Notes under the pieces: model-generated
What the model saw: only the letters and a program-made list of their open reading frames with translations
What the model was told of the DNA's origin: nothing
Database searches by the model: none
Shown here: positions 44,421-64,000 of the stretch, in pieces
How the letters are laid out: each line of letters opens with the position of its first letter
How positions within the stretch are numbered: the first letter of the stretch is position 1
From: Arthrobacter oryzae
GTDB lineage: Bacteria > Actinomycetota > Actinomycetes > Actinomycetales > Micrococcaceae
NCBI RefSeq assembly: GCF_030812315.1
Contig: NZ_JAUSSM010000008.1
Span: 62,001-126,000, forward strand
DNA length: 64,000 nucleotides
Direction of reading: 5' to 3'
Made by a program: the position numbers and the translations under genes

Positions 44421-44771
44421 TTACTGCCAGAGGGTGGCGATGGCAACGTTCAGCAGCGCCAGGCCGCCCACGCTGTGGGCCAGGCCCTTGCTGATCGGCT
44501 CGTCCTTCTTGTACTTGCGGCGGCCGATGAAGGCCAGCACGGCGACAGCCAGCGCGATGGCGAACTTGATGCCGAGCTTGAAATAGTTGGCGTCCATGTC
44601 CAGTGCGGGGATGAGCCCCATCATCACGATGCCGGTGATGAGCTGCAGGGCAGCACCGTCGAACTGGCGGGGGTGCACCGTGGGCTTTTTCATGTTGCCG
44701 ATCCAGATGCCGACAATCATCGCTGCGCCGACGATGTGGAGGAAGACCATGATGTTATAAACGATGTCCAT
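44421..44771 (-). CDS. Small four-helix membrane protein, conserved hypothetical
   Basis: This 116-aa protein has four hydrophobic helices: IVYNIMVFLHIVGAAMIVGIWIG, ALQLITGIVMMGLIPAL, LGIKFAIALAVAVLAFIG and SVGGLALLNVAIATLW. A His in the first helix (FLHIVGAA) and the His-Pro in the following loop recall small actinobacterial membrane proteins related to the CopD/DUF2269-like fold; I cannot assign a function. TAGACT lies 6 nt before the ATG (44778-44783), indicating a leaderless transcript. Confidence 0.8.
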   Translation of the reverse strand: MDIVYNIMVFLHIVGAAMIVGIWIGNMKKPTVHPRQFDGAALQLITGIVMMGLIPALDMDANYFKLGIKFAIALAVAVLAFIGRRKYKKDEPISKGLAHSVGGLALLNVAIATLWQ

Positions 44772-44846
44772 GGGGCCAGTCTAGCCAGAGGGTTCTACGC
44801 TTCGTAGTAAGCCCCGCGGGACGGCAAGGCGACGATTTGGTAACCA

Positions 44847-59428: not shown

Positions 59429-59815
59429 TTAGCTGTGGCCAAGCAGTTTGCGCAGCGTTTCGGCTTCACTTTCGGTGACGGAGCCAATAAAGCGGGCGAG
59501 CACGGCTTCGCGGTCAGGCGCAGAGCCCAGCACTTCATGCATGAGTTCCGCTGTGTGGTCCGCCCGGCTGGACACCGCTTGGTACCGGTGCGGGCGGGTG
59601 CCGCGTTCGCGTTCCACGAGCCCCTTCTTCTCCAGGCGTGAAAGCACGGTCAGGACGGTGGTCACCGCGAGGTCCTTGCCCTCGTGGCCGGCCGTGTCGC
59701 CCTGGGCCTGCGTGCTCAGCGCCAGGAGGTCCCTGAGCGTGTTGGCGGTGGCCGCTTCCTGGCCTGCCCAGAGCAAGTCCATCACTGCCCGTTCCAGTTC
59801 ACCAAGACTTGCCAT
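59429..59815 (-). CDS. BlaI/MecI/CopY-family transcriptional repressor
   Basis: This 128-aa protein starts at ATG 59815, which has AAGAAGG 9 nt upstream; an ATG 9 nt earlier touches that site. It has a winged helix-turn-helix (LGELERAVMDLLWAG, then VTTVLTVLSRLEKKGLVERERGTRPHRYQ) and a C-terminal dimerisation helix. It forms an operon with the M56 peptidase gene. One TTCTAC-N5-GTAGAA palindrome lies in its upstream region and two in front of cydA, so it probably represses itself and cydABD. Confidence 0.92.
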   Translation of the reverse strand: MASLGELERAVMDLLWAGQEAATANTLRDLLALSTQAQGDTAGHEGKDLAVTTVLTVLSRLEKKGLVERERGTRPHRYQAVSSRADHTAELMHEVLGSAPDREAVLARFIGSVTESEAETLRKLLGHS

Positions 59816-59918
59816 GCCGTACATCCTTCTTAAAGTTCCGATCCGCGCGACCGGAACGGCCGTCGCGGAACGTTGATCGAATTCTTAAGTTCTAAATTTA
59901 CCTCTTTTTTGACTTTCT

Positions 59919-59935
59919 TTCTACATGAGGTAGAA
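59919..59935. promoter_or_regulatory. Candidate BlaI operator 1 (blaI side)
   Basis: TTCTACATGAGGTAGAA, a TTCTAC-N5-GTAGAA palindrome. It lies 104 nt before the blaI start and overlaps a -35 position for a TAAATT -10-like hexamer (59895-59900, minus strand). Confidence 0.7.
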
Positions 59936-60007
59936 CAGTCGGCGCGTCGCGCCCTTGCCTCCGGCTCCGGCCGGTGGAACTGTTGTTTACACTGCACGCC
60001 GAAAGTG

Positions 60008-60024
60008 TTCTACACTCTGTAGAA
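60008..60024. promoter_or_regulatory. Candidate BlaI operator 2 (cydA side)
   Basis: TTCTACACTCTGTAGAA has seven-base perfect arms (TTCTACA/TGTAGAA). Its core resembles the TACA/TGTA dyad bound by BlaI-type repressors. It lies 66 nt before cydA. Confidence 0.75.
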
Positions 60025-60031
60025 GTTGATG

Positions 60032-60048
60032 TTCTACATTGCGTAGAA
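60032..60048. promoter_or_regulatory. Candidate BlaI operator 3 (cydA side)
   Basis: TTCTACATTGCGTAGAA, spaced 24 bp centre to centre from operator 2, so two dimers could bind in tandem. It lies 42 nt before the cydA TTG. Confidence 0.7.
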
Positions 60049-60089: not shown

Positions 60090-61691
60090 TTGGACGCTTT
60101 GGAAATCGCACGCTGGCAATTCGGAATCACCACTGTCTACCACTTCATGATGGTGCCCCTGACCATCGGGCTGGGCCTCGTGGTGGCAGTCATCCAGACA
60201 GTCTGGTACCGCACCGGCAAGCCGGAATACCTGCGCATGACCAAGTTCTGGGGGAAACTGTTCCTGATCAACTTCATCATGGGCGTCGCCACCGGCATTG
60301 TGCAGGAGTTCCAGTTCGGAATGGCCTGGAGCGAGTACAGCCGCTTCGTCGGCGACGTGTTCGGGGCGCCGCTGGCGCTCGAGGCACTCCTGGCCTTCTT
60401 CGTGGAGTCCACGTTCCTGGGCCTGTGGATCTTCGGCTGGAAACAGCTGAAGCAGGGCGTCCACCTGGCCTGCCTCTGGATTGCCGTGATCGGCTCCGTG
60501 TTCTCCGCCTACTTCATCATCGTGGCCAACAGCTGGATGCAGCATCCCGTCGGTGTGGAAATGATCAACGGGCGGCCGGTGATGACCGATGCCTGGGCCG
60601 TATTCACCAACAACACCGCCCTCGTGGCTGTGCCGCACACCCTCTTCGGCGCCCTGGCAGTAGCCGGCGGCTTCCTGCTGGGCATTGCCTGGTACCACCT
60701 GTGGCGCCGCCGTCATGACGGCATCGACACCGTGGGACCCGACGGCAAGGTCATTCCCGGCGAGGCGGACATCCCCGGCCGGGACAAGGCCGACTACAAA
60801 GTCTGGATCGCCTCGCTCAGGATCGGCGCCGTCGTCGCCATGATTTCCTTCGCCGGCACCGCACTGACCGGCGACCTGCAGGGCAAACTCATGTTCGAAC
60901 AGCAGCCCATGAAGATGGCGGCCGCGGAGGCAGCGTGCCACGACGGCACCGGCTTCTCCGTCCTCAGCGTCGGCAACGTCGGGTCGAAGAACTGCGACGA
61001 CATCGTGGCGGTCATCGAAGTGCCCGGGATACTGTCCTTCCTCGCCAAGGGCGACTTCACCACTGAAGTGAAGGGTGTCAACAGCCTGCTGGACCAGTAC
61101 AAGGCCGACTACGGTACCCACCTCCCGGACAACCCGATCTACGGCGACCGTGCCGGACAGGAAATCGAGTACGTTCCGGTCATGGAAGTGACCTACTGGG
61201 GCTTCCGGATGATGATCGGCTTCGGCGGCCTCGCGGCCCTCGCGGCCCTCGTGGCACTCTGGGCAACACGCAAGGGCACCGTACCGGCGTCCCGCGGCCT
61301 GATGCGGCTCGCCGTCGTCGGCATCATGGCCCCGTTCGGCGCCAACGCCGCAGGCTGGATCTTCACCGAAATGGGCCGCCAGCCGTTCGTCGTGGCGCCC
61401 AACCCGGACCCCAGCGGCATCGACCAGGTGTTTATGTTCACCGCTGCCGCAGTCTCGCCCGGTGTCTCCGCAGGAGAACTGCTCACGTCCCTGGTGGTGC
61501 TGACAGGGGTGTATGCCGTGCTGCTGGTGGTCGAGGTCCGGCTGCTGGTGAAATACATCCGCGGAGGCGTGGTTTCCGCCATGCCGGAACTGGCCCACGC
61601 CCCGGTTGATGAAAACGAAGACGCCACACCGGGTCCGGACGGCACCGGCAAACCCGGCGACGCCGACGACGTCCTGGCTTTCGCCTACTAA
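60090..61691 (+). CDS. cydA: Cytochrome bd ubiquinol/menaquinol oxidase subunit I
   Basis: CydA carries hemes b558, b595 and d and reduces O2 at high affinity without pumping protons. It is 533 aa. It begins MDALEIARWQFGITTVYHFMMVPLTIGLG, where a His near residue 18 is the heme b595 ligand. Other marks are AMAWSEYSRFVGDVFGAPLALEALLAFFVESTFLGLW, NSWMQHPVGVEM, a Q-loop with a Cys pair (CHDGTGF and KNCDD), and GWIFTEMGRQPFVV. The TTG start has TAGGGA upstream. It is first in the cydABD operon. Length indicates a longer Q-loop variant. Confidence 0.96.
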   Translation: MDALEIARWQFGITTVYHFMMVPLTIGLGLVVAVIQTVWYRTGKPEYLRMTKFWGKLFLINFIMGVATGIVQEFQFGMAWSEYSRFVGDVFGAPLALEALLAFFVESTFLGLWIFGWKQLKQGVHLACLWIAVIGSVFSAYFIIVANSWMQHPVGVEMINGRPVMTDAWAVFTNNTALVAVPHTLFGALAVAGGFLLGIAWYHLWRRRHDGIDTVGPDGKVIPGEADIPGRDKADYKVWIASLRIGAVVAMISFAGTALTGDLQGKLMFEQQPMKMAAAEAACHDGTGFSVLSVGNVGSKNCDDIVAVIEVPGILSFLAKGDFTTEVKGVNSLLDQYKADYGTHLPDNPIYGDRAGQEIEYVPVMEVTYWGFRMMIGFGGLAALAALVALWATRKGTVPASRGLMRLAVVGIMAPFGANAAGWIFTEMGRQPFVVAPNPDPSGIDQVFMFTAAAVSPGVSAGELLTSLVVLTGVYAVLLVVEVRLLVKYIRGGVVSAMPELAHAPVDENEDATPGPDGTGKPGDADDVLAFAY

Positions 61692-61711: not shown

Positions 61712-62761
61712 ATGGAACTGCTGCCCACCATCTGGTTCATCGCCATCGCGGTGTTGTGGACGGGATACCTTTTCCTCGAAGGCTTCGACCTCGGCGTCGG
61801 CATGCTGATGAAGCTTTTTGCCCGCAACAACACCGAACGCCGCGTCCTGCTCAACACCATCGGTCCCGTCTGGGACGGCAACGAGGTCTGGCTGCTGACC
61901 GCAGGCGGCGCCACGTTCGCTGCCTTCCCGCTCTGGTATGCCTCGCTGTTCTCCGCCCTGTACCTTCCCTTGCTGCTGGTCCTCGTGGCGCTTATCTTCC
62001 GCGCCGTGGCCTTCGAATACCGCGGCAAAGTGGATACGGACCGCTGGCGGGCGGTGTGGGACTGGGCCATTGCAGCCGGCTCCCTGGTGGCCGCCTTCGG
62101 CGTCGGAGCAGCGCTTGCCCTGACCACCACAGGGCTTCCGCTCAACGCCAACGGTGACCGGGAGGGCGGGCCGTTTGCCTGGTTCAGCGGTTACGCCGTC
62201 CTGGGCGGATTCGCCGTCGTGTGCTTCTCGCTGCTGCATGCGCTGGCGTTCCTTGCGCTGAAAACCGACGGCGACGTCCGGCACCGTGCCCGCCGCTGGT
62301 TTGTCCGGCTCCTGCCCGTGCTGGTGCTCCCCATCGCCGGCTGGGCCATCAGCGTCCAACTCCTGAGCGGCGAGGCCTGGACCATGGCGGCCGTAGCCGC
62401 GGCTGTTGTGGCAGCGGCCTTCGCCTGGCACTTCGGCCGGAACGGACTGGAGGGGAGGGCCTTCCTGTCCCTCGGAGTGTTCCTGCTCCTTGGCAGCGCC
62501 TCGATCTTCGGTGCGGCCTTCCCGGTGGTGCTTCCCTCCACCATCAACGCGGACTTCAACCTGACGATTTCCAATGCCTCATCCTCCGACTACACCCTGG
62601 GCCTCATGACCATCGTTGCCTGCGTGGGACTGCCGCTGGTCCTGGCTTACCAGGCGTGGACCTACTGGGTGTTCCGCCGCCGCGTTAGCGCAGCACACAT
62701 TCCGGAAGCCCACAGCTTCCTGCCTGCCATTGCCGCCAGGGCACTGGCCCCCAAGGACTAG
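61712..62761 (+). CDS. cydB: Cytochrome bd oxidase subunit II
   Basis: CydB is the second membrane subunit of cytochrome bd oxidase, structurally pairing with CydA. It is 349 aa with eight to nine hydrophobic helices. It has the family start MELLPTIWFIAIAVLWTGYLFLEGFDLGVGML, GPVWDGNEVWLLTAGGATFAAFP, and IFRAVAFEYRGK. AGAGGAAA lies 10 nt before the ATG. It starts 20 nt after cydA and ends 6 nt before cydD. Confidence 0.96.
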   Translation: MELLPTIWFIAIAVLWTGYLFLEGFDLGVGMLMKLFARNNTERRVLLNTIGPVWDGNEVWLLTAGGATFAAFPLWYASLFSALYLPLLLVLVALIFRAVAFEYRGKVDTDRWRAVWDWAIAAGSLVAAFGVGAALALTTTGLPLNANGDREGGPFAWFSGYAVLGGFAVVCFSLLHALAFLALKTDGDVRHRARRWFVRLLPVLVLPIAGWAISVQLLSGEAWTMAAVAAAVVAAAFAWHFGRNGLEGRAFLSLGVFLLLGSASIFGAAFPVVLPSTINADFNLTISNASSSDYTLGLMTIVACVGLPLVLAYQAWTYWVFRRRVSAAHIPEAHSFLPAIAARALAPKD

Positions 62762-62767
62762 GACCAC

Positions 62768-64000
62768 ATGAGACCCCAGTTCCCTGCCGGCCCCGCAAAC
62801 CGGTTCGCGCTCTATTGGCTGGGCCTGCTTGCCGCCCTCAAGGCCCTGTCACTGGTCCTCATGGCACAGGCAGTGGCTTCCGTCCTGGCCGGGCTGGTCT
62901 CACAGAACCCCGCCTGGGCTGAGCAGCTGGGCTGGGGACTCGCCGGCGTGATGCTGCGGTCCCTGACCGTGTGGGCCCAGGGAGTGGCTTCACGGCGTGC
63001 GGCGCTCGGGGTCAAGGAGGAACTGCGCTCGGCGCTGCTGGAGCGCGCCCTGCGGAACGGCGCGCGTGCGGCCGGTCCGTCCGACGGCGGCCTGGCCATC
63101 CTGGCCACGAGGGGCCTGGATGCCCTGGACAGCTACTACACCCAGTTCCTGCCCGCCCTCGTGAACTGTGCCGCGATCCCGCTCCTGCTGGGGGCCCGCA
63201 TCCTGTTCGCCGACTGGGTCAGCGCGGTGGTGATCGTCCTGACGGTGCCGCTGGTGCCGGTCTTTATGGTGCTGATTGGCCGCTATACAGAAGACCGGGT
63301 CCGGGCGGCGCAATCCGCCCTGGCCCGGCTCTCCGGCCACATGCTGGAACTGGCCAAGGGGCTTCCCGTGCTGGTGGGCCTCGGCCGTGCCACCGCCCAG
63401 CGCAAGGCACTCGAGGACATTTCGGAGCAATACCGGTCCCGGACCATGGACACGCTCCGGACGGCCTTCCTCTCGGCCCTCGCCCTTGAACTCATCGCGA
63501 CGATCTCCGTTGCCGTGGTGGCCGTCTTCATCGGTGTGCGCCTGGTACACGGCGACATGGCGTTGGAAGCCGGGCTGCTCGCACTGATCCTTGCGCCCGA
63601 CTGCTACCTGCCGCTGCGGGAACTGGGCACCGCCCACCACGCCAGCGACGACGGCCGCGCTGCCCTTGCCGAGGTCACCTCTGTTATGGACTCGCCGGAA
63701 GCCGTCACGCTGCAACGCCGGAACAGGCTGCAGCCGGGGGAGAGGGCGTCCGACGGCGGCGCGGACCTTCCGGCGGTGACCGTCCGTGAGCTGACGGTTG
63801 CCTACGGCGGTCGCCTGGATCCCGCCGTCGGGCCGCTCAGCTTCGATGCGCCCGCCGGGCGGATCACTGCCCTCGACGGTGCCAGCGGCGCCGGCAAGAG
63901 CACCATCCTCGGCGTCCTTGCCGGCATCGTGGGCACGGGCGGCGGTACGGCCGTCAGCGGTCGTGTTGCAGGATTTACGCCGGCGGACGTCGCCTGGGTG
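62768..64000 (+). CDS. cydD: CydD, thiol-exporting ABC transporter subunit (3'-truncated)
   Basis: This is an ABC transporter half that, with CydC, exports reductants (glutathione/cysteine in E. coli) and is needed to assemble cytochrome bd. 411 codons are inside the window and the frame is open to the right edge. The transmembrane domain (about residues 20-300) has hydrophobic helices and the coupling-type ARLSGHMLELAKGLPVLVGLGRA segment. The nucleotide domain starts near 335 (VTVRELTVAYGG), with the Walker A GASGAGKST at about 372-380. Whether CydC is fused or separate cannot be seen. Confidence 0.93.
   Translation, partial: MRPQFPAGPANRFALYWLGLLAALKALSLVLMAQAVASVLAGLVSQNPAWAEQLGWGLAGVMLRSLTVWAQGVASRRAALGVKEELRSALLERALRNGARAAGPSDGGLAILATRGLDALDSYYTQFLPALVNCAAIPLLLGARILFADWVSAVVIVLTVPLVPVFMVLIGRYTEDRVRAAQSALARLSGHMLELAKGLPVLVGLGRATAQRKALEDISEQYRSRTMDTLRTAFLSALALELIATISVAVVAVFIGVRLVHGDMALEAGLLALILAPDCYLPLRELGTAHHASDDGRAALAEVTSVMDSPEAVTLQRRNRLQPGERASDGGADLPAVTVRELTVAYGGRLDPAVGPLSFDAPAGRITALDGASGAGKSTILGVLAGIVGTGGGTAVSGRVAGFTPADVAWV

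Follow-up and report, generated by a model that had tools for sequence, protein, structure and literature searches.

BlaI and BlaR are taught as a penicillin switch. The BlaR1-BlaI pair of Staphylococcus aureus combines a protease fold and a membrane part with a PF03965 repressor, and its blaI lies next to the protease gene; these traits recur at the Arthrobacter oryzae locus described here, whereas the M56 protease at this locus has no penicillin-binding domain, and its sites precede respiratory rather than beta-lactamase genes. A respiratory connection has been reported for mycobacteria. In the available excerpts of PMC5473688 (eLife 2017), M. tuberculosis BlaI is stated, citing Sala 2009, to bind the promoters of cytochrome bd and ATP synthase, and mycobacterial BlaR is described as having no beta-lactam sensor. 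Excerpts of PMC12565901 report BlaI binding at the Rv1303-atp promoter, and according to those of PMC7058343, transposon sequencing indicated a requirement for blaR when heme or hemoglobin serves as the iron source for growth. The mycobacterial cytochrome bd genes cydAB are also controlled by Crp and SenX3-RegX3 (PMC7739888, PMC3116866, likewise in excerpt), which resemble BlaI/M56 in regulating cytochrome bd genes, but belong to unrelated protein families and form no protease-repressor pair.

The closest described relative is thus M. tuberculosis BlaI/BlaR (Rv1846c/Rv1845c), which, as far as the excerpts go, shares with the present locus a BlaI homologue, a BlaR without a sensor domain and the placing, predicted here, of BlaI at a cytochrome bd promoter. 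Unlike that system, blaI is divergent from cydA here, with three operators between them; none of the genes seen next to the sites was recognised as a beta-lactamase, and the sites reach hemQ, hmp and cytochrome c maturation genes and, in some genera, ctaC, qcrC and sdhC. The half-site here is TTCTAC, of which none was found at four loci of family f10, M. tuberculosis itself being compared by its published description. All coordinates refer to the window, the whole 64 kb stretch of DNA that was analysed (Table 1).

Table 1. Features of the blaI-cydA locus and of a further probable site in the window.
Feature	Position	Strand	Remarks
mem116, 116-aa membrane protein	44421..44771	-	no Pfam match; start 21 bp from the site at 44793
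Further probable BlaI site, one mismatch	44793..44809	.	TTCTACGCTTCGTAGTA; same site in genus relatives L268 and L269
M56 / BlaR1-type membrane zinc protease, 338 aa	58406..59422	-	without penicillin-binding sensor
blaI, repressor	59429..59824	-	PF03965, 72.4 bits (cut-off 22.6); translation probably starts at 59815
Operator 1	59919..59935	.	TTCTAC-ATGAG-GTAGAA; blaI side; 6-base arms around 5 bp
Operator 2	60008..60024	.	TTCTACA-CTC-TGTAGAA; cydA side; 7-base arms around 3 bp
Putative cydA -10 element TACACT (TANNNT type)	60011..60016	+	inside operator 2; assigned by conservation
Operator 3	60032..60048	.	TTCTAC-ATTGC-GTAGAA; cydA side; 24 bp from operator 2; 6-base arms around 5 bp
cydA, cytochrome bd subunit I	60090..61691	+	PF01654, E 2.6e-150
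cydB, cytochrome bd subunit II	61712..62761	+	PF02322, E 3.8e-102
cydD-type ABC transporter	62768..64000	+	PF00664/PF00005; cut by window end

The repressor product scores above the curated cut-off of Pfam Penicillinase_R (BlaI/MecI family) and has a homologue in PDB 2g9w (E 9.5e-16), which we take to be Rv1846c. The longest frame is probably three codons too long, with translation beginning at the later ATG, because a stop codon lies between both candidate ATGs in two relatives (L023, L027). A second PF03965 match in the same genome is weak, scoring 23.8 bits where the cut-off is 22.6 and covering 53 positions of the model.

A sequence-only reading of the window had described three matching palindromes between a divergent blaI-M56 operon and cydABD, one on the blaI side and two on the cydA side 24 bp apart, the second with seven-base perfect arms. 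All of this was recovered. An exact search for TTCTAC-N5-GTAGAA returned the three operators of Table 1 and no other match in the window, and 100 dinucleotide-preserving shuffles of the window gave no match (mean 0.00, largest 0). The 5.1 Mb genome contains seven exact sites, three of them at the blaI-cydA locus, and one match to a reversed control pattern.

Within the genus, a BlaI match was found in 60 of 61 genomes including our own, the exception being a genome that is 68% complete. All three exact sites, operator 1 among them, were present in 29 of 30 genus loci, that of the window included, and L013 had one. Operators 2 and 3 were spaced by 23, 24 or 25 bp in all 29 three-site loci, and the distance between operators 1 and 2 ranged from 85 to 815 bp. 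The largest distance belongs to L021, where an apparent insertion between blaI and cydA has replaced the spacing of about 90 bp and the three sites are retained. In an alignment of 27 intergenic sequences (the window plus those three-site loci in which fewer than 200 bp separate operators 1 and 3, among which the window's own copy recurs as L006), operator 2 forms a conserved block. Its centre contains ACT in 29/29 three-site loci; the centres of operators 1 and 3 differ in this, that of operator 3 being variable in the genus site table of 29 loci. Judged from this conservation, operator 2 would cover the cydA -10 box and operator 3 would lie over the first transcribed bases. If the mostly conserved TAAATT found 18 bp beyond it serves as the blaI -10 element, operator 1 would probably coincide with the -35 region of the blaI promoter.

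The arrangement extends through the family. In 30 other genera, represented by one locus each, at least one exact site lay upstream of blaI in 28 (all except L079 and L087), and cydA was divergent from blaI in 26, the exceptions being L063 (at a contig end), L066, L079 and L087. The search for the same palindromes in related Micrococcaceae that the sequence-only reading had suggested was also successful: among the best 80 of 578 relatives, named loci from Arthrobacter, Pseudarthrobacter, Paenarthrobacter, Sinomonas and others, 59 had three sites, 16 had two and five had one, and cydA was divergent in 76 and missing from the locus in the other four. These 80 loci are not an independent sample, because they overlap with the genus and family genome sets. 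Genes kept together with the palindromes lost, the pattern that would tell against the proposed link, did not occur in the genus, where 29/30 loci keep three sites; it was seen in part outside the family, where two (L243, L254) of 11 loci with divergent cydA had no CTAC-N5-GTAG.

Cytochrome bd is not the sole apparent target. In seven genus genomes, all 30 fetched sites away from the cyd locus, a set that leaves out two sites (G002:C1:694503, G058:C1:4307319), fall in six recurring neighbourhoods: upstream of hemQ-hemH-hemC and upstream of yceI with a ccdA-resB cluster on the other side (7/7 genomes each), between an Rrf2 gene and hmp (6/7), at the gene of a 126-aa membrane protein (mem126) beside a gene that by eye is MATE transporter-like (5/7), at a pyridoxamine-oxidase-like (PNPOx) gene (4/7) and at a second resB-like gene (1/7). 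In our own genome, the yceI site is separated from yceI by 166 bp and from ccdA by about 1.4 kb. HemQ and ferrochelatase score above NCBIfam cut-offs; the Rrf2 gene, the flavohemoprotein and YceI score below the NCBIfam equivalog cut-offs (NsrR, Hmp, YceI) and above those of Pfam. The respiratory oxidase named as the linked target in the sequence-only reading thus stands as one apparent target among several.

Ten genomes from ten other genera of the family contained 75 sites compared with one control match, 22 of them at blaI/cydA and 53 elsewhere. By a tally of neighbours summed by hand, with Pfam checks on some of them, 30 of the 53 adjoin respiratory-chain, heme, cytochrome-assembly, Fe-S/ABC or hmp genes: hemQ 7, hmp 6, ccdA/resB 3, sufR/ABC 3, hemA/hemE 2, ctaC 2, CtaG 2, and one each at a qcrC-type cytochrome c gene, sdhC, a ctaB-type UbiA gene, SURF1 and atpB. 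A further nine lie at genes whose respiratory tie is unproven (mem126 5, PNPOx 2, mem116 1, isocitrate lyase 1), and 14 are beside genes without a clear respiratory link (transporters, universal stress proteins and unrecognised genes, including L110, tallied as unrecognised despite a resB-like gene starting about 0.9 kb off). Neither a beta-lactamase nor a PBP gene was recognised next to any of the 30 genus or 53 family sites, as judged by the first residues of flanking ORFs and Pfam scans of some.

Sites with one mismatch may add to this set. Ten were fetched from our own genome outside the window; one (L260) is upstream of a qcrC-type gene, and another (L259) is intergenic, flanked by an HTH gene and by the ABC gene of a sufR/ABC-type promoter region; both places carry exact sites in other genera. 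The remaining eight were not counted, as they lie inside ORFs or beside unrelated or unclear genes, one of them (L262) about 200 bp before a succinyl-CoA-ligase-type gene. Within the window, the mem116 gene is a probable member of the regulon, judging from the one-mismatch site at its start and from a 53% identical relative in another genus (L106) that has an exact site at its start.

Several observations were made alongside these counts. The mem126 copy in our own genome (L039:3502-3882, minus strand, 126 aa) has no Pfam or NCBIfam match; relatives were found at L045, L046, L053, L092, L099, L114, L120, L132 and L155, and the gene has a site at its start in 5/7 genus genomes and 5/10 other family genomes. 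In genus g12 (G071, G101, G125, G148, G166, G197), genomes contain 3-15 exact sites each, and the regulon seems to be enlarged; G071, which has no cydA, has sites at ctaC, ctaB-type, SURF1, sdhC and CtaG genes and at a suf/ABC promoter. Universal stress protein genes, which are often tied to low oxygen, adjoin sites in two genera (L129, L150). G121 has two copies of hmp with an exact site at each (L111, L127).

The occurrence of the sites was compared with that of BlaI and cydA in a survey of 149 family genomes from 32 genera, each scored for BlaI, exact sites and cydA. Genomes with a BlaI orthologue (127) had a mean of 5.38 exact sites and 0.46 matches to the control pattern; those without BlaI (18) had 0.11 and 0.17, respectively, and four g11 genomes with a distant BlaI homologue only, counted apart, had one site each. 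The mean was 0.09 in the 11 genomes with cydA and no BlaI, and 7.3 in the seven with BlaI and no cydA (among genomes scored as lacking cydA, G092 has a weak PF01654 match below the cut-off). G149 is the one genome with a BlaI orthologue and zero sites. Within g6, two BlaI genomes had one site each and five without BlaI had none; within g14, two BlaI genomes had one and zero sites and five without BlaI had none; in g3, all eight genomes lack BlaI and two of them have one site. Exact sites therefore follow BlaI and not cydA in this family. The direction of this relationship is clear and the number of independent events behind it is limited, because few genera lack BlaI (all eight g3 genomes, 5/7 in g6 and 5/7 in g14). 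At one locus, L156, a distant CydA (42% identity) has two upstream sites 23 bp apart and no blaI in its 5 kb.

The partner protein of BlaI is related to BlaR1 in its membrane and protease portion. Pfam gave M48 39.3 bits (cut-off 20.3) and M56 22.5 bits (below the cut-off of 31), and the protein has the HExxH motif and downstream Glu of a membrane zinc protease of the BlaR1/M56 type. An AlphaFold model of the 338-aa protein (33 sequences, pLDDT 88) found S. aureus BlaR1 as its best PDB match in Foldseek (probability 1.00, E 4e-3), followed by ZMPSTE24 and other zinc proteases, with no match reaching E 0.001; aligned to BlaR1 8exs with VIA-align, it gave Z 11.2 and rmsd 6.0 over 214 residues at 15% identity. 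The model covers residues 7-293 of the 556-residue BlaR1 chain, and the protein stops after its last predicted membrane helix, so that the C-terminal extracellular penicillin-binding domain of a classical BlaR1 is missing, in agreement with the sequence-only reading. Based on the model, the protein would be the membrane/zinc-protease unit of BlaR1 minus the penicillin-binding domain. Residues H182, E183, H186, E223, D227 and D228 are invariant in 33 family sequences and in 20/20 from other families, as are A150, C152 and P154 of an AYC-x-P motif, in which Y151 is F in one of the 20. The stretch between the second and third membrane helices is short and variable, and no other sensor part was found in the alignment and the model. 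The membrane histidine H104 was considered as a heme or quinone ligand and rejected as a general sensor residue, because it is invariant in the 33 family sequences and replaced in 16/20 sequences of other families.

From the sites, their conservation, their dependence on BlaI in the family, the neighbouring genes and the modelled fold, we infer how binding, repression, cleavage and signal may be connected, and we consider it likely that BlaI represses a regulon for respiration, heme and nitric oxide, which the M56 protein relieves on a probably respiratory signal. A BlaI dimer would sit on each 17-bp palindrome; occupied operator 1 would shut the blaI-M56 promoter, and occupation of operator 2 over the cydA -10 box and of operator 3 just past the start site would repress cydABD together with blaI-M56. 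BlaI would also hold down hemQ-hemH-hemC, hmp and yceI/ccdA-resB, and probably qcrC and the sufR/ABC promoter in our own genome, while further oxidase, SDH and ATP synthase genes may be under its control in some other genera. The M56 protein, acting as a BlaR1-type membrane zinc protease, would inactivate BlaI on failure of respiration or of heme or oxidase function, such as might be caused by nitric oxide, low oxygen or an inhibited oxidase, and bd oxidase, flavohemoglobin and fresh heme could then be supplied. The bd oxidase is less sensitive to NO and cyanide than are heme-copper oxidases. The module that the sequence-only reading had seen as derepressing cytochrome bd is supported in part, by the co-occurrence of sites, BlaI and the cydA divergon across the family and partly in other families, and was drawn too narrowly, cytochrome bd being one target of a wider regulon. 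Of the envelope or redox state proposed there as the signal, redox is suggested by the target genes only, and the envelope part found no support.

Other explanations of the locus were weighed against these data. Inverted repeats upstream of cydA could be RNA hairpins or chance repeats, a reading to which we give practically no credence: it is contradicted by the comparative counts, shuffling never produced the palindrome, only one of 30 genus loci has lost any site (in the other 29 the exact search itself makes the arms identical), operator 2 retains the -10-like TACACT at its centre, and sites occur on both sides of the divergent promoter region and at unlinked genes. A hairpin or terminator was dropped because of the sites at unlinked promoters and the -10-like centre of operator 2. 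It is also conceivable that a different transcription factor binds the palindromes and that BlaI is merely a neighbour, since an Rrf2/NsrR-like gene adjoins the hmp site, the genome has the weak second PF03965 match, and the pairing of BlaI with the palindromes comes from comparison. However, where BlaI is gone the sites are gone, despite the presence of cydA in 11 genomes and also within g6 and g14, and the site upstream of blaI in 28/30 family loci is what autoregulation predicts; we therefore hold a different factor to be very improbable.

The nature of the signal allows more latitude. Staphylococcal BlaI/BlaR1 senses beta-lactams, and by the same wiring beta-lactams or cell-wall damage could be sensed here, with the cytochrome bd and heme genes as side targets of an envelope response. 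Such a connection would accord with the induction of blaR-blaI and cydAB by a beta-lactam/inhibitor combination in M. tuberculosis, reported in the excerpts of PMC5473688. The absence of a penicillin-binding domain from the M56 protein and of any recognised beta-lactamase or PBP gene beside the 30 genus or 53 family sites, whose flanking ORFs were scanned in part, argue against it, and we regard it as distinctly unlikely. Alternatively, the regulon may be real and have no dedicated signal, with BlaI setting a basal level and regulating itself while M56 turnover is constitutive or responds to general membrane stress. The short, variable stretch between membrane helices 2 and 3 and the lack of another recognised sensor part are consistent with this; the presence of the M56 gene beside blaI in 30/30 family loci, its invariant catalytic residues and its nearly invariant AYC-x-P suggest instead that its activity is regulated, and a regulon of this passive kind appears rather unlikely to us.

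Repression by BlaI with relief by M56 can be followed only in part outside the family. In a sample of 296 genomes from the class, the BlaI model was matched in 190 and an exact site was found in 45, nearly all in families f1, f4 and f22, so that the motif, or orthology, stops short of most other families; there, the operator may differ or the BlaI match may be a paralogue. Family f4 had one to two sites in 9/9 genomes with a BlaI match and none in 4/4 without, and f22 had at least one site in 28/28 genomes with a match and none in the one without. Among 20 BlaI loci of eight other actinomycete families, cydA was divergent in 11 (f4 5/5, f6 1/1, f22 2/3, f24 1/1, f29 2/2) and not beside blaI in nine, being absent from the stretch examined in f10 (0/4), f21 (0/3) and f2 (0/1). 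CydA proteins of these loci were 26 to 72% identical to our own. Each of the five f4 loci and a single f22 locus had exact sites, and one site per locus reads TACTAC-N5-GTAGTA at the two f29 loci; no CTAC-N5-GTAG site was found at the f6 and f24 loci, which have cydA beside blaI, or at the four f10 loci, which do not. Four further f4 sites adjoin hmp (an Rrf2-hmp pair with an exact site, L288), ABC transporter fusion genes (L285, L286) that may be cydDC, Pfam giving ABC domains only, and an unrecognised gene (L287). Of 15 sites in three f22 genomes, those at a blaI/cydA-like locus in two of them (L270, L281) are clearly respiratory, and one (L284) is weakly so, beside an Rrf2-like match of 33% identity; the other 12 had no recognised respiratory neighbour, and f22 was dropped as an extension of the full regulon. 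The wide regulon is therefore shown for our own family only. Together, the second, weak PF03965 match, the scarcity of exact sites across the class, the lack of sites at the f6 and f24 loci and the Foldseek E-values limit the reach of our interpretation beyond the family, and not the reading of the locus itself.

The link between BlaI and cytochrome bd proposed in the sequence-only reading is not new, having been stated for M. tuberculosis in the excerpts of PMC5473688 citing Sala 2009. Among the matches listed from the open-licence literature, we found no report of BlaI with cydA outside mycobacteria, of BlaI with heme or hmp genes, or of such a regulon; subscription journals lie mostly outside that search, and absence is not proven. 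Our findings therefore extend the respiratory link known from mycobacterial BlaI to a family in which it is built into gene order and accompanied by a wider regulon. It is possible, if somewhat doubtful, that the ancestral role of BlaI and a sensorless M56 in actinomycetes was to watch the respiratory chain. The M56 protein would then itself be the sensor, of quinol, heme, NO or a failing oxidase, and the invariant AYC-x-P cysteine might take part in this. BlaI would act as master repressor, its targets being cytochrome bd and, in certain genera, also the genes for heme, bc1-aa3, SDH and ATP synthase. On this tentative proposal beta-lactam control would be later or secondary, and mem126 and mem116 would be new respiratory factors.

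There are BlaR-type proteases that have no penicillin-binding part, and here the neighbours of the sites name the process concerned: cytochrome bd, heme synthesis, cytochrome maturation and NO detoxification. The question of what a sensorless BlaR responds to can thereby become a direct experiment in harmless soil bacteria, for which the candidate signals are few. Mycobacterial BlaI, which has been linked in print to cytochrome bd and ATP synthase, gains an evolutionary context, and small membrane proteins without an assigned function become candidate respiratory factors.
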